Source of the DNA: Spiroplasma endosymbiont of Panorpa germanica
GTDB taxonomy: Bacteria; Bacillota_I; Bacilli_A; Mycoplasmatales; Mycoplasmataceae
DNA length: 64,000 bases
Direction: 5' to 3'
NCBI RefSeq assembly: GCF_964019765.1
Contig: NZ_OZ026461.1
Location: 186,001-250,000 of the forward strand
In this document: piece by piece, positions 31,779 to 51,470 of the stretch
How positions within the stretch are numbered: position 1 is the stretch's first letter
Layout: each line of letters starts with the position of its first letter
Made by a program: the position numbers and the translations under genes
The notes under the pieces: generated by a model
Told to the model about the DNA's origin: nothing
Seen by the model: the letters and a program-made list of their open reading frames with translations, nothing else
Database searches by the model: none

Positions 31779-31822
31779 ATTAAATTATTAAATTCAAGTA
31801 TAATAAGATAAAGGTGATTGAA

Positions 31823-33682
31823 ATGAGTATTAAATTTGAAAATGTTAAAGTAACAACAAAAAAACAAAAACAATGAAATATTGATTTCAATGCCCAATCG
31901 GGAAAGGTTACTAGCTTTCTTTGTGAGGAAAGAATTGTTAGAACAGAGTTTAAAAAGATAATGAAGGGCTTAGGCCATGTAAGTTCAGGACGCACTTTGA
32001 TAAATAATAATGACATGATTAACTACAAGTTAAATCAAAATCAAATCGCTGATTTAACAAAAGATAGTTATATTGAAAGGATTGTCCCACCGAGATTAAG
32101 TCTATTTATTTCGCTTCTATTTAATCGAGATTTTATCAGAGATGGTAAAACCAAAATCATTAAGGCTCGCTATGAATACTTATCATACAAGACTTCAAAA
32201 AATAATCAAAGTGATTTACAAATGCGACAAGAGATTCAAAGAATTATTCATATTTTTGTTGAAAATTCAATCAGGGTCGAAAAAGAACTTTTAGATATTT
32301 TTTTCAAGCAGATTACAGAATTTAACAATTCAAGAGCTGATAGCAAGATTAACGGTGTCAGTGGTAATCTAGCGATTTTACTAAAACGATTCAATCTATT
32401 AAAAGAAATTAATGCAAATAAGGAATTACTTTTGACGTTCATGCAATCTCTTTGAGATAAGGTTTATGCTTTTATAGAACTGAGATATTCTTGTGATTGC
32501 GAATATAATAGTGGTAGAATAAAAGCGAAAATCTCAAGGAAATTAAGATTTTACGAGCACGAATGAATTGTTAAGGAACAGTTGAAATTAATTGATTTGG
32601 ATGTTAGTCAGTTAAAGTCTTCAATCCAACACAATAAAATTGAAATAAAGAATCTAGCTAGAAAAATTAACAAGATATTAAATGGTTACAAAAAATTAGA
32701 TAGTCAAGTTGGCTTAAATTTAATTTCTGAACTTAAAATTTGAAATAATCTTTCAGCAGATCAAAGATTTGAATTTAGACGCAAACAAGAAAACCTATTC
32801 TTCAAGATCCTTTTAGATGAATCAAACATTATCAAAGGTAAAATAGTTGAAATAGTTCACAGGTATCACGAACTAGTTTTGGAAGGCAAAACCGAACAAG
32901 GAGAAAAGAAAAATTTCAGATCTATTTGCAAAATTAAAAGATCACAAATTCCAACCCTTTACTCTTTGTCGCATTCTTGAACACAAGATATTTTAAATAA
33001 ACTTGAAATTAAGTTTGATTGATTTATAAGTTCTTTCAAAGTAAGTTCGTTAGCCCAAATTTATTTACAAATAATCAGAGCGATTCATTTAAAAAAGAAA
33101 AACATTATTATCGACAACAAATTTCATATGCTAACAAAAAACGATGCAAATTCGTTGATAAACACAATCAGAAGAATAAATGCTTTCTTCCCCAAGGTCT
33201 CTATTATTATTATGGAAAGCAATTTGAAAAACCTTCCAAATCTTAACGAACCTTTTTATTCAATTAACAATAGTGATTTAGAATACGTTTCGTTGAATAA
33301 TGAGTTTTCAAAAAACAACAGCCCTTATCTGAAGGAATTTAATTACAAAAACTTCACCACTAATATTCAGTTAGAAAAAAACTTGTTAAAAATATTAGAT
33401 CAAAGTTTGAAATTGCCTGATAAAAAATCAACAATTGATTCAAAAGTGGCGATTATTAATCCCTTCGCCATAGAAGTTTTAAATGAAAAAAATGCAAAAA
33501 ATTCTATGCAATTTGCTGCCAAAATAATTAGTGATTCCAATTTTGTGGACCCCAGCCTTTATTTGGCGGAGATAAATCCAAATGTATCATTGTACTTCTA
33601 TGAAAATCAAAATATTAACGAGAACAAAGCTGTAAAAATTGCTATCAGTCAAGAGGCTATTTTTATACCCGAAGGGAATTAA
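31823..33682 (+). CDS. Degenerate ABC-type ATPase-like protein (motifs lost)
   Basis: This 619-aa protein is read through five or more TGA-Trp. The first ~110 residues follow the order of an ABC NBD: strand IKFENVKV, then WNIDFNAQSGKVTSFLCEE where a P-loop should be, then KIMKGLGHVSSGRTLINNND (like GL..p.sG.i..ng.d) and VPPRLSLFISLLF (like the P-L-T-V block). A helical insertion of about 270 residues follows. Then SLAQIYLQIIRAI occupies the LSGGQ...RA position and KKKNIIIDNKFHML the Walker B position, with VSIIIMES in place of the H-loop. Walker A Gly/Lys, the signature Gly pair and the catalytic Glu are all missing, so ATP hydrolysis is unlikely. The frame is intact over 1.86 kb, so it is maintained. 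nrnA starts 5 bp after its stop. Confidence 0.62.
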
Positions 33683-39238: not shown

Positions 39239-39266
39239 TTAAAAAACAGCAAATATATGTTATAAT
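39239..39266 (+). promoter_or_regulatory. Putative promoter of the giant-protein cluster
   Basis: TTAAAA, 16 bp, TATAAT; followed 28 bp later by the start of the first gene. The -10 is consensus and the -35 weak. Confidence 0.5.
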
Positions 39267-39293
39267 TATAAATGAAGTATGGAGGGTCTATCT

Positions 39294-40679
39294 ATGAGTA
39301 GTAAATTTAAAAAGGCCGCTTTAGAAAAGAATTACAAGTACAATCGCCCCGAAGGTGAAAATATAAATTCAAAAGGCAGCAATACAAAAAAGGGTATTAA
39401 CGATTATAAATCAGCTCGTAATGGAGGAGTAAATTTGAAAACGATTTCTGTTGATGAGGTTATCAACGCCTTAAGAAACTCTAGTGTTAAGAAACAATTC
39501 TTTGCTTTACTGGGAAACCAAGATGAAGTAGCAAATGAAATTTTTACAATAAAAGCTGGTGCCGGAACTATTAATATGATTAATATCGAAGCTAAAAAGG
39601 TATACCTTTATAATGGACCCTTTTCCTTCTTTATAAAACAAATTATCAATCATCTCCCAGTAGTTAAAATCGAGGATAAAAAAGTTCTTTGAGAAAGAAT
39701 TTCGATTTTACTTTCAGCACTGAACTACGGGAAAGGCGATACTGATTTTTGTTATGACTTTGAAGAAAGCTTGGACTTTGATGATCCTTTAGAAGCTATT
39801 AGATTAGAGTTCAATGAAGTTTTTGAAGCCTATGGTTTTCGCGAACCACTAGTTATTTTAATTAGAGACTTTAGAGGTTTGGCGTTTGAAGATGTTAATT
39901 CTATGGTTTCATTTGTGACAACTATTTTTGATAGGGTTTCAAATATTAAAGTTTTAATAGAAATCAACCCTAATTTAATAACTGCTCATTACCAAAATTA
40001 TATTGGTGATTACATTCAAAATTGATACACACTTTTTGATGGATTAATTGATTGTCGTAACCTACTAGAACCATATGAATTAGATAATAATGAAACCATT
40101 TTCTTTGAACAGTTTGATGAATTTAATGATAAAACTCAACCGTTAAATGAATTAAAAGAAGTTCAATTTGACACGGTTAATCAAAAGAACCCACCAAAAA
40201 ATAATTTTAAAGAAGATGAATTAGCTAGAGAAATAGCAGACCAGTTAGTTCAAGAAACAATTGAGCTCCCTGATAAAAAACAAAAAATTAACAAATTATT
40301 AAATGTAAAAATCCCAGACTTTAGTTTAGATAGTACCATGGAGGTTCCTAAAGAAATTAGCAAATTCGCAGACTTGAAAGATCTAAGCTCACTTAAAAAC
40401 AATAGAAAAAATGAATTTAAAAACAATAAAAATTTGGATGAAGAGGCCAAAACAATAACAAATCTTAACTTAGGTGCACTATTTGGTGATTACACAGTCG
40501 AAGAAGATGACGAAGATTTTGAACCAATTAAAAAAGAGCCTAAGGTTGCTAGATCTTCATTTTTAAGACGCAGCGATGGTGTTGAAGAAACAATATTTGA
40601 TCCAGAAATTTTAATGGATTCAGTAAATTCATCTAATGCAAGAAGTGGTTTTCAAAACCCTTTTAAAAATAAAAAGTAG
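39294..40679 (+). CDS. Unknown soluble protein, first gene of giant-protein cluster
   Basis: This 461-aa protein has no membrane segment or signal peptide. The first ~55 residues are basic and low in hydrophobics. Residues about 60-260 look globular (mixed alpha/beta; note PLVILIRDFRGLAFEDVNSMVSFV and NIKVLIEINPNLI, which resemble alternating strand-helix units). Residues about 290-461 are acidic, Lys/Asn-rich and probably disordered. GGAGGG is 7 nt before ATG 39294; an in-frame ATG at 39279 overlaps that site. No family is recognised. It lies upstream of a small membrane protein and the 3111-aa protein, suggesting a common structure. Confidence 0.7.
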
Positions 40680-41374: not shown

Positions 41375-44300
41375 ATGAAAAACTCACCTATAAAAACTTA
41401 CACCAAAAATTTAATAAAAGAAGCTAATCAAGTAAATTTAGAAAAAGTAAGTTTAAAAGATATAAAGTGGCCTGTTAATGAGCCTTGAAATATAAATAAC
41501 TCAAGATATCAAAAACTATATATAAGTTGAATGGATAAAGTTGAATTCCTTCATATCTTAAACAACAAAAATATTTCAAAAATAAAAATTCAAAATTTAA
41601 AAGTTAACCAACTAACAAGAATGCAAAATGTTCATAATGATATGGCTTATGCTGTGAACAAAATTGCTAAATCTTTAAAGTTGGCTGACTCTTTTTTAAT
41701 TGCCTATGTTGATTATGTAAATAGCGTTTTCTCTGTAGGTAATGAAATGATCGCGACAACAGAAACTTACGTAAATCGACGTATTTCTTTTGAAGATATT
41801 CAAGGTCCAGTTCATGAACCTGCTAAAATACTATGTAATAAATATCAAAAAGTTTATATAGATTGATTAGAACTAATTAATCAGATCAAAAAAATAAATA
41901 ATTTTAATATTACTATGATTCGTCAAGGTAAATGAGACATCATGAAAATTAGACGTGAATCAGCACTTTATAATCAAAAAGTTGATAAAGTAAATCAAAT
42001 TGCTAAATATTTACAGTTGGCTGAAAATTTTGTAGTTGCCAAAGTGGACTATCTAAATCCAGACTACATTAAGAAGGCTCAAATTGATAAAACAATTATT
42101 TCATCAAAAGATGAAATAAGATTTAGAGAAATTGTTGGCCCAATTTATGATCCTTCAAGAGTAAATAATAGTAAATACCAAAGACTTTACTCATACTGAT
42201 TAGAAGAAATTAATAACTTGAAAATTATTCACAACCGTAATATTGATTTAATTAGTGATGGGATGATTTCTGAAAGAAAAATTGAGAAATTGCAAAATGA
42301 ATACAATTATTTGGTGAGAGATGTAAATGATTTGTTCGAAGATTTAAAGTTAGCTGAACGTTATCGTGTCGCTAGAGTGAACTACTTTATTAACGTCTAC
42401 GAGAAAAAATATTATCAAGAAGATGCTGGCGAAATTACTTACAACGAAATGAGAATTGAAGAATCAGGCGTACCATTCCTAACAATTGATAAGCCTTTGG
42501 AATTAGATTTATCAGAAAAAACTCATGTTGAGAGAATGGAAGCTGAAGAAATAAAATATAAAAAAGTTGTAAAAGATATCCAAGATACTCAAAAGGTTTT
42601 GGATGATTTTGTAAACTTTGAGGAAGTTAATGAGGAATTAATAATCCCTGAACAAACAAAAGAAGAATTTATTTTAACTGAAAAAGTTGTTGAGGAAGAT
42701 GATACTGATTACACAATCACAGATGAAAATTTTGATATAACTTTACAAAGCATCACTGAAGCTGTTGATGAAGAAGAATTAAAAGACCGAGAAGATGTTA
42801 CGGCAACCTTCATCAAAGAACATGCACTTTTTGATTGAAATGGAAGACCGGTTTACAATGAGCAAAAACAACAATTAATTGCAAACCCTGAAATTTTGAA
42901 ATTGGATATCACAAATGTTTATGATGAAAATTTCAGACCACTATTTAGCAATGATAAAGAATTGCCTTACGGATATTCTTTATTTGATTGATTGGGAGAT
43001 CAAGTTTATGATGAACTTGGTAATTTTATAGTTGAAGAAGTGAAAATCAATTTTGATGCCAAAAAACCAAAATACAAAAAAGATGATACTCAATTTATAA
43101 AATTTATTCCTCAACCTAAAGATCCAAAAGGAACTAAACTTTATGATTGACACGGGAATCCGGTTTTTGACAAACAAGGAAAACAACTTGAAACAGATGG
43201 CGAAAATGCTCAGATCTTAGATACAGAAATTTTTGATGTTAATGGAAATAAATTTACTTTAGAAAAAAACAAATTGCCATACACAAAGGCGTTGTTCAAT
43301 AAAAATGGATTTAAGTCTCTTGATGTTTTACAAGACAGTGATGCAAAAGAGTCTAAAGGTGTTCCCGCCAAAGAATACTACGCTAAGATAAATAAACCAC
43401 TTCCTTTAAATTCAACTGAGTTAGAAAAAATTGAAGAAAACAAAGAAGTTAATTTACCAGATAATGATGAACAACTAATTGTTGTTAAAAAACCTTCATC
43501 TAATAATGTAGCGCTATTATTTGACAGAAATAAAAAACTTGTTTTTAGTCCCAACAAAGAACCATTAGAACTTAATTCAGATCTTGGTGCAGTGGACTAC
43601 TCGATTATTTTAAATAGCGCTGGGAAACCTCTTGCTAGCTCAACAAAGTCTCCGATTGTCTTATTTGATAGCCAAGGAAACGTTGTCTTTGATAAAGATG
43701 GTTTTTTAGTTGAACAAGAATTAACAGTTCCGAGAGAATTGAAAAACAAAATTAGTTTCAAAACTAAACCAGTAAAAGAAAAAAGTACATTGTTATTTGA
43801 TATAAATAGCAAACCAGTTTTTGACAAAAACAAGAAGCAACTTACAGTTGAATCTGTAAAAGATAAAGTTGATTTTAAAAATGTTTTTGATAACAAGGGG
43901 AAAAGCGTACTAAAAAACAAAGAAAACCAAATTTATGGATTGGCACTTTTTGCTGCGGACAAAGAACAAGTCTACACAAAAGATGGTCAACTGATTTACA
44001 AAGAATTTGTAGAAGTTAATAATTTTGAAAAACCGTTAGAAAATTTAGTTGAAAATGATATCTCTAAAAAAGATGATGATTTTATTTTAATCTTTGATAA
44101 AAATAACGAACCACTTTTTGACGCCTCAGGAAATCAATTAAATACAGGAATGGATTTTTCAGAGTTTTATCCAAGCAAGATTTTTACAAAACATAAAGAA
44201 CCTGCCTTTCATGATAAAAAAAATATCGATTTATATGACGCCTCAGGAAATCCTTTAAATGAAGTTAAAGAAAAAATTGGAGAGCAACCTTTGACTTGCA

Positions 44301-47300
44301 GCTTACCTCCTGATTATCAAGAAAAATTAAATTCAGATAGACAAGAGCAATATCCTAGTGTAGGAACTCTGATGTTTGATAAAAAAGGTAACCCTTTATT
44401 TTTTGAAAACAAAGAACATGCATTCATTGATGAAGAAAATTTTGATATTAAAGAAAAAGTTATTTTAAACGAAAAGGGACAACCATTATTTAATACTAAA
44501 AAATTAGACAAAGTTGATTTTGCTGTATTTGATTCAGCTAAAAATGAAATCATAAATAAAGATGGAAAATTAAATAAAATTAAAAACAAATCACTTGAGG
44601 AATCATCTCAAATATTTGACATAGATGGAAATCAATTATTTAATAAAGATAAGCAACCTTTGCATGTAGACAACTCTAATTTAAAAGAGATTTTATCTGG
44701 TCAATTATATGATAAAAAAGGGAAACCATATAAATTAAAAGAAAATCAAAGAGCAATCTTTGACATAGATGGAAATCAATTAACAAATAAACAAGGTGCG
44801 CCGCTTATTGAAAAGTCTTTGGATTCTAAAATTGCTTCAGATGATAAAATTCTAGTTAAATTTGAAGAACCAATTGCTCCAGCAGGGACTCAGTTATTTT
44901 CAAAAAAAGGGGAACAACTATTTAACAGTGAGGGACAATTATTTGTAACCGATGGTAAACTAAATCCAATTTCTGATAAATTATTTAATGAACATGGAGA
45001 TTTAGTAATTGATCCAACTAACAAGTTACAGGATGCTACTTTGTTTGATAAAAACAATAACAAAGTCTATAACGAAAATGGAGATCTTATTACAGAAGAT
45101 AAATTTTTAGAGGTAAGTTCAGATAATTTAGCTAAAAAAGTTTTAGATAATGGTGATACAGTTGATGTAATTAAGAGACCAATAGTTAAAATGAATGAAA
45201 ATTTATTCTTAACTGATGGAACAGAATTATTTGATGAAAACCAAAATCCAATCACTTTAAATTCAGTTAATCAAAAAGCACCTGAAAGAATTTTCTCAAA
45301 AAATGGCAGCGAAATTAAATACCCAGACAACAACAAAACTATAATTGATAGTAATGGATTAGTAGCTTTTGATAAAAAAGGTAACTTAAAATTCAATGAA
45401 ATCCCATTTGAAAAAGTGGAAAGTAATAAAAATGATGTAGCTTTTGATATCGAAAAAACAAATGAAAATCTTTTTGAAGAAAAACCAAATCAGACAGTTG
45501 AAAATCAAAAATTATTTTTATTAGATGGAACAGAATTATTTGATGAAAACCAAAACCCCATTACTTTAAATTCAGTTAATCAAAAAGCACCTGAAAGAAT
45601 TTTCTCAAAAAATGGTAGCGAAATTAAATACCCAGATAATAACAAAACATTAGTTGACGATTCTGGAATAGTAGCTTTTGATAAAAAAGGTAACCTAAAA
45701 TTAAGTCAAAATTATTTTGATGAAACTTATGGTTTAAAAGATAACAAAAATTCTAAACAAGATGGAAATGAATCGGGTGAAATTAAAAACCAGGAACAAC
45801 TAGAAGTGGTTGAAAAATTAATTAAGAAACCAATGGCCCAAGAAGGCGAACAATTATTTAATAAAAAAGGAAAACCCGTTTACAACAAGGACGGAGAAAA
45901 AATTACTTTCGATGCTATTAATGAAAAATTTGATGGGGAAATCTTTGATAAAAATGGTAAATCAATTTCAGATAAAAAAGATTCACAGTCAGATAAAACT
46001 CTTTACAATAAAAAAGGAACTAAAGTCTTTGATGAAAACGGAGATGCCATTTTTAACACTGAAGTCATTTCTATAAATCCTGATAAAATAAAAATCAAAG
46101 AGCTGGAAGATGGCAATACAATTGAAATACTTTCAGAACCATTAATTAAAAATGAAGAATTATTATTTACACAAAATGGAGAACCTGTATTTGATGAATA
46201 TCATCAACAGTTAAGAACTTCTCAAGACGAAAATGATCAATCTCCTGAAACTGTTTTTGACAAAAAAGGGAGAGATATATCACATAAATTGGATAATATC
46301 CGTGTATTGTTTGATAAAAATGGTAACCCAGCTTATGACCGAAGTGGTGATCGTTTAAAAGATGAAAAAATTTTAAATGACTTAGCGGAAAACAAAACTA
46401 AATCAGATAATCTATCACAAAATATCAAACCACAAAAAGAGACAGAAGAAGTTTTAGTGACAATACAAGAACCATTGGCACCAAAAAACACGCCCCTATT
46501 TACTAAAGATAAAAAACCTTTATTCAATAGAGAGGGTGAACAAATTTTAACTGACGGAAGAATGGAAAAATTTAGTCAGCCTGTTTACAGCGAAAATGGT
46601 GAAATTGTATTTGATGCAGCGGAAGAAAACATCGATAAAACTTTATATGATGAATTTGGTAAGGAAATATTTGATAAAAATGGATCACCGATTTTATTAT
46701 CTAAAAATATCAATGTAAAACCTGAGGAAGTAAAAACTAAAAAAACATCAGATGGCAGCGAAGTGAAATATATTCAAAAACCTTTAGTAAAAAATGATGA
46801 GCAACTTTATTTAACTAACAAAGAACCTGTTTACAAATCTGATGGTACACCTTTATTATTCAAAGATGATTTATCATCGGCACCTGAAGAATTATATTCA
46901 CAAGATGGTAAATTATTAAATAATCTAATTGATTCAAAAACTTTAGTAAATAAAGATGGAATAATAGCGTTTAACCGAAACGGTGATTTAAATATTATTG
47001 AAACTCCAGTTGTGGCATTAGAGAAATCAATATCAAATGAAAATGTAAGTACTGATTTGGAATTAAAAGAATCAGATTACAAAAATTCATATTCACAAGA
47101 TTCTTATGACAACAATCCAAATCAAGATATCACTGAAGGTCAACAAATATTTTTAGCTAACAATCAACCAGTTTATAACCGAAACGGTGATATTTTAAAA
47201 ACCACAAAAGACATGGAACATTTTTCAGATGAGATGTTTGACGAAAAAGGAAATTCAATTCCCGAAGCACCCAATCAATCACTTTACATAAGTGATGGAA

Positions 47301-50300
47301 CTAAAGTTTTAGACAGAAGAGAAAATGCTAAAAATATTAGTCCCGAAAAATCTTTTGTCGAAAAACCATCAGAAGATAAAAATTTAGAAGAAAATGTTAT
47401 AGCTGAAATAAAAGTCACTTCAGTAAGCCCAGGAGCTCAGTTATATACAAAAGATAAACGCCCAGTCTTTAATTCTAAGGGTAAACAGTTGCTTAACAAT
47501 GGTAAACTTTCAAAAATTAATGAGACAGTTTTTGACGAAAAAGGAAAAATAATTTTTGATCCTAAAGACGAAAATTCTGATAAATCACTTTTTGATAAAG
47601 ATGGAAATCAAGCTTACAAGGAAAATGGTAAACCATTACTTAAAAACAAAGAGGTTAAGATTAAATCTGGCGATATCAAAAAAACGGTTCTCCCTTCTGG
47701 AGAAAAAATTAAATTTATTGAGAAACCTGTAGTTGATTTCAATGAACCGCTATATCTAGATGACAATACTCCAGTATTTAAATTTGATGGTAGTCCACTT
47801 ATATTCAATGATGTTTTAAGTGAATCCCCAGAAAATTTCTATTCTTCTAACGGAATAAAAATCAAAAATGATGACGAAACTAAATCTTTATTTGATAAAA
47901 ATGGTTTAGAGGTTTTTGATAAAAATGGTAAACTTAAAACCGTTAAAGAACCAATCGTCAAAATATTAGATAGTGAACATGAAAACAATAAATTTGAAAA
48001 TAAAGAACTTGAAAACAATGAAATTGAAAACAATGAACTTGAAAACAATGAACTTGAAAACAATGAACTTGAAGATGAGCAAGAAGAAAAAAATGAGCGA
48101 GAAATTGAATCAGTTAAAGTGGAAAAAATAATAAATAGTCCAGTAGCGCCTATTGGTACTTTGTTATTCTCAAAAGATAATACTCCAATTTACGAATTAA
48201 GTGGAAAAAGATTAAAATTATCAGAAAATAAAAATCCTTGAGAAGAGGGAATTTATAATTCAAATCTTCAACCAATTTTAGAATTAGATAACAAAAATCT
48301 TTATGATGCTGAGGGTAATGAAATTTTCAACAGCGATGGTAATTTGATTTTAAAACATAAAAAAGTTCTTGTTGACAAAAAAGATATCGAAACTAAAGTT
48401 CTACCTAACGGAGAAAAAGTTGAAACAATTAAGTCTGCAAATGTGGACAAGGGACAGTTTTTATTCTTGAAAGATAACACACAAGTTTACGATAAAAATG
48501 GAAGTCCAATATTATCAACTGGTACTGATGAACCTTTAAGAGGTGATGTTTTTGATAGAAGTGGTAAAAATCTTTTCAAAGATCCAAAGTATTACGAAAA
48601 CGGAAAATCACTTTTCACAAAAGAAGGCGTACCAGTTTATGATATGAGTGGTTCAGCTGTTACAAATGAAAGTCAGATTATTGACGAGGCTGATATAAAT
48701 AACAATTTGGAAGCTAAAACTGCCAAAATTCCAGATTTAAAATCTGAAAAAGTGAAAGCTAAAATAAAGACTCCGATTGCAAAAGTTGGAACCCCATTAT
48801 TTACAAAAGATCAAGAGCCAGTATTTACTAGCGAAGGTCAACCATTGAAATCTGATGGACAGGTTTCAAGAATAACCTCACCAGTTTTTGATAAATCAGG
48901 TAATTTGTTATTTGCATTAGATGATCAAGAAAAAGACAAATCATTGTTTGATAAAGAGGGTCGTAAATTATATTCTGAAACAGGAAAACCTGTTTTAGAA
49001 ACAGTTGAGTTAGAAATTAACCCTGAAGAAGTTAAAACTAAAAAATTACCTTCAGGAGATACTGTCAACTATATTGAAAAACCTCTTGTTGAAACAGGGC
49101 AACAGTTGTTCTTGAAAGATGGAACCCCAGTTTATAAAGCTGATAAAACCCCATTAACAATGGAAGATTTTATGACCAAAACACCAGAAAAAATATTTGA
49201 TATTCAAAGTCGTGAAATTGATCAAAAAGACAACAAAGCTTTATTTGATAAAAACCAACAAATGGGATTTGACGATAAGGGTAATCGTAAAACAATTAAG
49301 AGCCCAATTGTAAAACTTTTAGATGAAACTAAAAGGGAAACAGATACACCAAAAGCAAAAAATGATTCCAAAGAAGATAAAAATATTTTAAAAACTCATG
49401 AAAATGAAGAAATTATTTTATTGGAACCAACCGTTGAAGAAGGAACTTTATTATTTGATAAAAAAGGTCGTCCGGTATTTGATGTCAATGGAAATCAATT
49501 AACTCAAGGAAAAGTTAACGAAGTTGTTGCTAAAGAAATCTTTGATGTGAATGGTGAAATTCTAAATAAAGATGCTCAGGAAAAAAATATCAAACCTTAC
49601 TTGTTTGATGAATCAGGTAAAAAAGCTACTGAAATCGATGGAACACCAATTGTCAAAGAGGTTTTAATTGATTTAAGTAATCCAATTCAAAAAGACAAGG
49701 AAATTGAAATTATTATCGTACCTATTGCTAAAATAGGAACTAAACTTTACACAGAAAATGGTTCACCAGTATTTTATTCTTCAGGCCAACCCGTAGTTGT
49801 AAATTATGAAATAGAAAAATATGATTTCTCAGATATTTACGACAATGATGGAGAGTTAGTAGCTGAACAAAATGAAAATCAAGAACTTTTTGATTTTGAA
49901 GGAACCCACGTTATTGAAGATGGAGAGCTTATCAAAGTTAAAAGAGCTGTTAAGAAAAACAAAGAAATCAAAAAAGACGATAAAGCAAATCGAAAAGCTA
50001 AAGTTAAAGAAAATATAGATAAGTTTAAAAATTCTCAAAAACATGCAAAGAAAGATTTAGACAATGTTTTTGATGAGGCAAATAGTAGACTTGAAAAAAT
50101 CAAAGAAGAATTAAAAGAGATTACTGATAATACTCAAGCTAAACGTCAACCTAAATCAGTCTTTGATAAATTAACAGAGGAATATGAGGATGACTATGAT
50201 ACTGAATATGACTTATTAGAATCAAGAAGAAAACCTAATAAATCCAAATCAATAAATGATGATTTAGAGCCTTTACCAAGTATGCAACAAAGCTTTGTTC

Positions 50301-50710
50301 CAAAAGAAAACAATTTCTTTAATAAGATTGAGGATAGAATGAATTCAATTGAACAAATGCTAGCAATTTTAACAAATCAAGATAAAACTATGGATTCAAG
50401 CAAAATTAGAATATTAAAAGATGATATCGACAGAATCTATGCAGATATAAATAATATTAGTTCTAGCGTTCCAAGTTTTACTTATAATAATCAGTTTAAT
50501 CGCAAACCTCATGATTTTGATATTTGCGGCTGCAAAAATGATTGTGGATCTTCAAAAAGAAGACACCATGTTTATAATTCTGGAAACAACTTTTCACAAA
50601 GAGGTAATGATTTTAAAGTAGCTAACTTTAGTCACCACCATAATTGTCACCACAAAAAAAATGATGGTCATCAAATTTGTGAACACTGTGGAAACAACTT
50701 TAATTATTAA
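41375..50710 (+). CDS. Giant repetitive intracellular protein (3111 aa)
   Basis: This is one open frame of 9336 nt when TGA is Trp. No signal peptide or membrane helix is seen. Residues 1-~480: three copies of a ~120-residue unit ending in the pattern GP(I/V)(Y/H)(D/E)P...NKYQ(K/R)(V/L)Y..WLE.IN and containing LKLAE..(V/I)A.VDY. Residues ~484-2850: over 60 short units of the type LFDKNGNPVFDKNG, each with a Gly turn, grouped in supermodules that begin P(I/L/V)AP.GT.LF at nt ~44870, 45829, 46470, 47418, 48137, 48770, 49425 and 49721. Residues ~2855-2925: basic coiled region. C-terminus (from ~3048): six Cys and many His (CGCKNDC, HHHNCHH, CEHC), a likely metal site. Overall acidic and almost Cys-free elsewhere. 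It may be a cytoskeletal or scaffold protein (inference). AAAGGG lies about 12 nt upstream. Confidence 0.85.
45202..45393 (+). repeat. Direct repeat in giant gene, copy 1
   Basis: About 190 nt nearly identical to 45511-45702, offset by 309 nt (103 codons). Encodes DGTELFDENQNPITLNSV and following residues. In-frame internal duplication. Confidence 0.88.
45511..45702 (+). repeat. Direct repeat in giant gene, copy 2
   Basis: Second copy of the 309-nt-period duplication; differences from copy 1 are mostly third-position changes (for example AATCCAATC versus AACCCCATT), plus divergence near the 3' end. Confidence 0.88.
47981..48073 (+). repeat. 15-bp tandem repeat in giant gene
   Basis: About six copies of GAACTTGAAAACAAT, the first ones imperfect and the last three exact, encode (E-L-E-N-N)n. 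This is a candidate variable-number tandem repeat; the 15-bp unit keeps the frame. Confidence 0.9.
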
Positions 50711-50718
50711 TTTAAATA

Positions 50719-50776
50719 AAATCTTTGAGTATAAATAAATGTTCGCCCGTTTATTTTATACTTAGAGATTTTTTTA
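50719..50776 (+). terminator. Strong terminator after the giant gene
   Basis: A stem of about 19 bp (ATCTTTGAGTATAAATAAA with the complementary strand, a few G-T pairs and one bulge) and loop around GTTCGCCCG, followed by T7. Confidence 0.9.
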
Positions 50777-50816: not shown

Positions 50817-51470
50817 ATGAAAAAAGATTTTAATTTTATTAAGTGAGATAAGGAAGGTAGACAATTTAAGGTAACAGGTAAAACAAATGATTCATTTTTA
50901 AAATCTTTTATAAATCAAGACAACTTTACAATGACAACAACCCAAGATATTGTTAATGGTTTATTTCCATATATTGACTTGAAACTAAAAGAAGAGCAAG
51001 TGCTAAATTCCATCGAAAGAGAGACTTGCGTCAAAAAAATTTTACAAGATTCAATTTCTAAAAAGACTAAAACAATTCCATTCGTTCTAAATGAATGTGA
51101 GGATAAATTTCATCAGCAAATTGCTAAAAGAATAATTACAGAGTTCAACCAAATTATCTATAAATATGATGTTAGTAAAATTGAAACAGATTTTATAAAC
51201 ATATTGGAAGGGGAATGCCCTTTTATCGGAATGATTCCTTTTATTTTCCAAACAAAATATGGTGATTTAATTGTTGATATTCGAGCGGGACAAACACATT
51301 TTGAAGAAAGAACTACAGCACTTTGTTTTTTGTATGAGCAGTTATGAATTAATAATACTAATTCAAAAGTAATTAAAAAAATTATTATTAACCCACGTTG
51401 AGAAAAAGCTGTTCAGGAGTTAGAAAATCCCAGCAAAAGCATCGCTTGAAAATTACTTAATTTTTGCTAA
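50817..51470 (+). CDS. Unknown 217-aa protein, possibly PD-(D/E)XK nuclease-like
   Basis: This soluble protein is read through five TGA-Trp. The N-terminal ~40 residues include WDKEGRQFKVTG, followed by a helical part. Residues about 100-175 show the order of a RecB/Cas4-type fold: a Glu in a helix (KIETDF), then GECPFIGMIPFIFQTKYGDL, then a strand IVDIRAG and TALCFLYEQL, resembling the 'G-x-D ... hhhDhK-x-(G) ... QL..Y' pattern. The catalytic Lys would be Arg here, so activity is doubtful. No family can be named with confidence. It is a single gene with its own TATAAT. Confidence 0.6.

Follow-up and report, generated by a model that had tools for sequence, protein, structure and literature searches.

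The window analysed here, a 64,000-nt stretch of the genome of the Spiroplasma endosymbiont of Panorpa germanica, contains three consecutive genes, termed A, B and C, which follow tsaC and are separated by 33 and 32 nt (Table 1). The third, directly downstream of A and B, encodes a giant protein. A promoter-like element precedes the unit and a terminator-like hairpin closes it. For gene A, a start at 39294, after a GGAGGG, is more likely than the one tabulated.

Table 1 Features of the A-B-C unit (positions in the window).
Feature	Position	Strand	Remarks
Promoter-like element before gene A, TTAAAA-16-TATAAT with a TG ahead of it	39239..39266	+	Consensus match only
Gene A, 466 aa, predicted degenerate AAA+/STAND P-loop fold	39279..40679	+	First gene of the unit
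Gene B, 209-aa membrane protein, ~four predicted TM helices	40713..41342	+	
Gene C, giant protein, 3,111 aa	41375..50710	+	Code 4 ORF, kept in congeners
N-terminal helical repeat 1, aa 31-120	41465..41734	+	Repeat profile
N-terminal helical repeat 2, aa 142-231	41798..42067	+	Repeat profile; DNA repeat D4
N-terminal helical repeat 3, aa 253-342	42131..42400	+	Repeat profile
Tandem beta-hairpin module array, aa 481-2919 (~2,440 aa)	42815..50131	+	Profile
Recent internal duplication D2, two copies of 208 nt each (88% identity), separated by 309 nt	45194..45710	+	
Two consecutive supermodules, aa 2251-2645, fold predicted	48125..49309	+	AlphaFold2
C-terminal coil region, aa 2974-3030	50294..50464	+	Profile of the giants' C-terminus, matches g9 and g7
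Cys/His tail, aa 3046-3111, ending CxxC	50510..50707	+	Six Cys and several His
Terminator-like hairpin and T run, closing the unit	50718..50776	+	-21.1 kcal/mol, z = -8.7

Gene C is a single intact gene

The initial annotation had described the giant as a single 3111-aa frame when TGA is decoded as Trp, and this description holds: under code 4 one ORF spans 41375-50710 and includes nine TGA codons. Translation with table 11 splits the frame into several ORFs, which is the sole point in favour of the explanation that the giant is not one protein and instead represents an artefact of the reading frame, a run of several genes or a pseudogene in decay. At the base composition of the window, the probability of a random stop-free run of this length is ~10^-93. 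The gene is present as one copy in the 1.054-Mb, one-contig genome, and intact orthologues occur in both sampled congeners (3,280 aa in G001 and 2,305 aa in G002). A comparison with the G001 orthologue, for which the dN/dS values are rough and synonymous sites are near saturation, gives ~0.06 for residues 1-420, indicative of strong purifying selection, ~0.19 for residues 2860-3111, where constraint is intermediate, and ~0.33 for the late modules, where it is weaker. Both ends of the protein are conserved across the three species, and the number of modules is variable. Because the frame is intact in the congeners, is under purifying selection and is conserved at its ends, the giant is one real, intact gene. 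The possibility of several separate genes, which the annotation had named as grounds for abandoning its reading, is thereby ruled out; with end-to-end conservation, an intact frame in three species and dN/dS well below 1, the artefact and pseudogene explanations are refuted and retain a negligible probability.

Architecture of the giant protein

The three N-terminal helical repeats start at residues 31, 142 and 253. Their number agrees with that proposed originally, and the proposed size of ~120 residues is replaced by a spacing of 111 residues. A repeat-module region of about 2400 residues, with seven or eight supermodules, was likewise recognized at the outset; it spans residues 481-2919, and a 180-residue supermodule profile gives 15 matches in the giant, six of them full 180-residue supermodules accompanied by half units, along with 15 matches in the G001 orthologue and 10 in that of G002. 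The P-x-x-G-T-x-L-F marker occurs ~8-12 times, depending on strictness. A 15-nt tandem repeat coding for (E)LENN at 47961-48095 forms a low-complexity linker between supermodules.

An AlphaFold2 model of two consecutive supermodules, run with 15 family rows, is all-beta with a disordered linker (pLDDT 83.9). Its low pTM of 0.42 is consistent with two separate all-beta units on a disordered linker. A Foldseek search with this model, at E ≤ 0.001, matched neither PDB entries nor viral models, and a search of PDB sequences with the module profile returned nothing. Strong matches to the modules are confined to the host genus of the giant; matches elsewhere in the order (E 1e-6 to 5e-4) belong to unrelated proteins, one of them NusG-like, and were rejected as sources of the modules.

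At the C-terminus, a basic coiled stretch precedes the Cys/His tail. In agreement with the initial description of a terminus that holds six of very few Cys residues and many His residues, six of the eight Cys residues of the giant lie within residues 3051-3105. All six, together with several His residues, are invariant in the three species. This conserved pattern is what supports the suggestion of a metal-binding-like tail, and the tail is probably a zinc knuckle.

The statement that no named family has this architecture is also upheld. No NCBIfam, PADLOC, PHROGs or PDB family fits the giant, apart from one negligible PHROGs match, and a phage or defence origin was rejected on the lack of any PADLOC match and this negligible PHROGs match. 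In Pfam, the whole-protein score for Bflower (PF21784) is 29.4 relative to a cut-off of 25, a diffuse match summed from many weak repeat matches. Membership in this family was rejected: only one of 19 modules matches, weakly (E 0.017), and no single stretch exceeds the cut-off.

Relatives of the A-B-C set

In most of the relatives that were read, the A-B-C order comes after prfA-prmC-TM protein-tsaC. The arrangement of the three genes differs between lineages. In g9, the third gene encodes a separate protein of 624 aa. Most Spiroplasma have B and C as one protein, mostly of 750-1,240 aa, and this holds for g7, g8 and g12; the genera g7 and g8 are Spiroplasma, and the latter includes S. phoeniceum and S. 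poulsonii. In genome G072, loss of the stop of A has joined A, B and C into a single open frame of 1,708 aa (L124:3639-8762, minus strand). Genome G007 combines A with a C-like gene of 565 aa and has no recognisable B.

A profile of the N-terminal repeats of the giant finds a single YxxW helical domain in these shorter relatives, with E-values, scaled to a nominal 20,000-protein search, of 1.5e-13 in g9, 1.2e-12 in g7 and 6.5e-5 to 1.4e-2 in g12 and g8. In the fused proteins, this domain directly follows the B part; where C is a protein of its own, it lies close to the N-terminus. A profile of the C-terminal coil of the giants matches g9 (E 5.9e-9) and g7 (E 3e-4), and a CxxC end is seen by eye in g9 and g8 and is not seen in g7 or g12. 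From synteny, the helical-domain profile and the C-terminal coil matches, it therefore follows that the giant is gene C of the set, split from B, with its helical domain tripled and its spacer replaced or expanded by beta modules. The uncharacterised B-C fusions of other Spiroplasma (949 aa in S. poulsonii and ~900 aa in S. phoeniceum) share with the giant its locus, a helical domain and, in several lineages, a coiled C-terminus. They differ in having one helical domain instead of three, in being fused to B, in lacking the beta-module array and in being approximately three to four times shorter. Such shorter relatives without beta modules occur across Spiroplasma; the ends of C are conserved, and the middle differs in length and type between lineages. 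Relative to the first reading of the giant, what is new is that it is one part of a three-gene set and that shorter, module-less relatives exist. A-B-C is a previously unnamed gene set found almost only in corkscrew-shaped Spiroplasma.

Two further proteins of the window have conserved surroundings. A 217-aa protein (50817-51470) adjoins the tsaC region across Spiroplasma and Mycoplasma-like genera, and its other members are recovered at E 3e-8 to 4e-36 by a profile built on three g1 sequences. Its VDIRxGQxxFEER motif is reminiscent of a possible degenerate PD-(D/E)XK fold. A 622-aa protein (31814-33682) without a Pfam family has relatives in g12, g7 and g9 that are similarly placed, upstream of a DHH-family gene and tdk.

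Gene A has a predicted P-loop fold without Walker A

Searches with the gene A product in Pfam, NCBIfam, PHROGs, PADLOC and PDB sequences returned nothing. Its AlphaFold2 model, based on an alignment of 19 relatives, has a pTM of 0.77 and the strand-helix order of a P-loop domain. The best Foldseek matches are RdrA (E 1.4e-4, probability 1.00) and ORC/Cdc6. These proteins resemble the gene A product in predicted fold and strand order and differ from it in sequence, with an identity of ~12%; the gene A product also lacks Walker A. In all 19 members, this motif is absent from the loop after the first strand, and the GK[ST] matches in the g12 proteins sit outside the P-loop position. No match to RADAR or other defence systems was found for gene A. 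Because the predicted P-loop fold lacks Walker A, the product of gene A is probably a pseudo-NTPase.

Gene B is predicted to place gene C at the inner face of the membrane

The product of gene B has a basic tail and, joining helices 2 and 3, the positively charged loop RKRQK; both ends of this protein should thus lie inside the cell. Its cytosolic tail contains the conserved sequence NNYxEERNLxxIYxEExKFExEVxKEG. In fused relatives, the C part continues directly from the cytosolic tail of B. As B is predicted to have both ends inside and relatives fuse B to C, the product of gene C should be cytosolic, start at the membrane and work there. The giant itself has no hydrophobic segment, the best 19-residue Kyte-Doolittle mean being 1.19 relative to a cut-off of 1.6, and neither a signal peptide nor a membrane anchor was found on it, as had been noted from the outset.

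This topology bears on whether the giant is a surface adhesin or a host-interaction repeat protein. Many of the large repeat proteins of mollicutes are adhesins, and the number of modules differs between species, as such a role would allow. However, gene C has no signal peptide or membrane segment, fused relatives place it after the cytosolic tail of B, and the N-terminus is the most constrained part of the giant. An adhesin is accordingly the least credible of the functional assignments considered.

The combination of a membrane protein with a STAND/AAA-like fold, in a set restricted to Spiroplasma genera, could also be read as a polar signalling complex in which B is a sensor, A a STAND-like integrator and C a scaffold that signals to the ribbon and sets the start of kinks. 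Such a complex would be part of the chemotaxis route of Spiroplasma, and chemotaxis without two-component genes has been reported (PMC5289999). In genome G045, probably S. eriocheiris, a 468-aa substrate-binding lipoprotein is encoded just downstream of the set (L147:336-1742), which would suit this role; it matches SPE-0075 in length and annotation, a protein found in the Triton-insoluble internal structure of S. eriocheiris (PMC5289999 Table 1). Nevertheless, B has short loops and no sensor domain, Walker A is absent from every A member, and the lipoprotein neighbour is found only in g8. Signalling of this kind is considered unlikely.

Distribution relative to MreB and fibril

Gene A is present in 40 of the 60 genomes of the family and gene B in 39. 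In an order-wide search of 298 genomes, gene B is strong only in its own family, with four borderline matches outside. Genomes with A hold 5-9 MreB-model matches, and 18 of the 20 without A hold 1-3, counts that include one DnaK-type match. The genera with A-B-C are also those to which the Spiroplasma fibril and the five or more MreB paralogues are restricted, or in which they are expanded, and the fibril and MreB ribbon are cytoplasmic and membrane-associated, as is predicted for the set. They differ from A-B-C in having no sequence relation to it and another locus, and in that the set is retained where the fibril is broken.

The set is absent from a Mycoplasma-like clade (g2, g3, g4, g5 and g10), in which fibril matches are only of nucleosidase length and full-length fibril is absent. 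There, tsaC is followed directly by a relative of the 217-aa gene in all of the six loci read except that of g3. In a prfA/prmC/tsaC tree, this clade is nested among Spiroplasma genera with 99% support, and deeper nodes are weak. The absence is most simply explained by one loss. Because the set-less Mycoplasma-like genomes form one clade, the co-occurrence of the set with MreB and fibril amounts to approximately one independent event, and it is suggestive, not statistically strong.

The family search found no recognisable A or B in g11, which keeps fibril (37-43% identity) and 3-5 MreB. A membrane-type protein lies after tsaC in these genomes, where A-B-C would sit (L127:6924-7943 and L128:6796-8370); the B profile matches the 525-aa g11 protein of this type at a borderline level (E 0.0086 of 1,000).

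The fib gene is intact in the endosymbiont and in G001 (520 aa). In G002, the fibril gene (C1:366283-367842, L107) has a premature stop that leaves 341 aa, and in G064 it lies in two overlapping pieces (C1:424281-425815); both genomes keep A-B-C. Retention of the set is therefore not simply tied to an intact fibril gene. The idea that the set replaces a lost fibril was rejected, as fib is intact in the endosymbiont and G001 and prematurely stopped only in G002. The broken genes of G002 and G064 match reports on S. sabaudiense and S. helicoides, which lack an intact fibril and are still helical. A probable stop in the fibril gene is reported for S. sabaudiense Ar-1343 (PMC7609405), and helical swimming persists in the two species with defective fibril (PMC9582952, PMC7609405).

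A scaffold for cell division or chromosome partition, expendable in the Mycoplasma-like clade, would also be in keeping with the AAA-like A and the coiled C, both common in such roles, and with the housekeeping genes that adjoin the set. Against it, relatives without the set divide, and no division family matches, which leaves this assignment quite improbable.

A predicted membrane tether for the internal cytoskeleton

We favour, with a probability of roughly 55%, the interpretation that the giant acts as a cytosolic, membrane-tethered spacer or scaffold within a three-gene unit specific to Spiroplasma, of which it is component C. In this proposal, the A-B-C set would anchor the internal cytoskeleton to the membrane. 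The N-terminal helical repeats would dock C on B at the inner membrane face, and A, with an AAA-like fold that lacks the ATP-binding loop, would be a structural or regulatory partner. The beta-module array would serve as a long, length-tolerant spacer, and the C-terminal coil and probable zinc knuckle may oligomerise or grip either the MreB/fibril ribbon or the tip core. Constrained ends on either side of a middle that tolerates change and differs by lineage are more in keeping with a tether or spacer than with an enzyme. The cytoskeletal scaffold first put forward gains support from the cytosolic topology, the membrane-protein fusion of relatives and a distribution with the expanded MreB set; the internal tip structure put forward with it is considered next.

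The attachment-organelle proteins of Mycoplasma pneumoniae (HMW1/HMW3/P65 type) are large, cytosolic mollicute proteins that are coiled or repeat-built, as is the giant. A core component of the cell tip, or 'dumbbell', analogous to the core of that organelle, would account for a C that is cytosolic, very large, coiled, membrane-linked and restricted to polar helical cells. Yet the named terminal-organelle family models in Pfam and NCBIfam do not match the giant, and the M. pneumoniae proteins have other neighbours and domain types. Furthermore, a relative is unreported in the dumbbell-containing Triton-insoluble fraction (PMC5289999). A tip-core role therefore stands alongside polar signalling as an outside prospect, and the membrane anchor or scaffold is ranked above both because of the topology, the pattern of ends and middle, the species with broken fibril and observations on recombinant cells (PMC9663586). 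That study notes that recombinant mollicute cells carrying MreBs and fibril form kinks yet fail to swim; they show neither polarisation nor a dumbbell core, and the ribbon may not be firmly fixed to their poles.

The Triton-insoluble fraction also bears on the anchor. In S. eriocheiris, 16 proteins were identified in the dumbbell/ribbon fraction (PMC5289999 Table 1), and the 985-aa B-C protein of G045 is absent from them. This absence is weak evidence against an anchor, because only 14 stained bands were analysed. Identity of B-C with SPE-1201, a 769-aa membrane protein of the same fraction, was rejected by gene number: SPE-1201 is expected near the MreB cluster (~1.35 Mb in G045), and A-B-C lies at 71 kb.

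A more far-reaching version of the anchor is offered tentatively. A-B-C may be an undescribed membrane-anchoring machine of the Spiroplasma helical cytoskeleton, composed of a pseudo-AAA protein, a tetraspan and a cytosolic scaffold and without counterpart in other bacteria, in which the scaffold of one genus has become a titin-like ruler built from a beta-module fold with no PDB match.

Implications

The identity of the giant emerges from its neighbourhood; its function we infer. The protein adds a beta-module fold without a PDB match and exemplifies a spacer that has grown rapidly although the genome is small. The A-B-C set bears on how the Spiroplasma ribbon attaches to the membrane and the poles, and on the make-up of the tip core. 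All sampled genomes of the main Spiroplasma genera carry the set, and the Mycoplasma-like clade that branches within them lacks it; its genes are named candidates for ribbon attachment.
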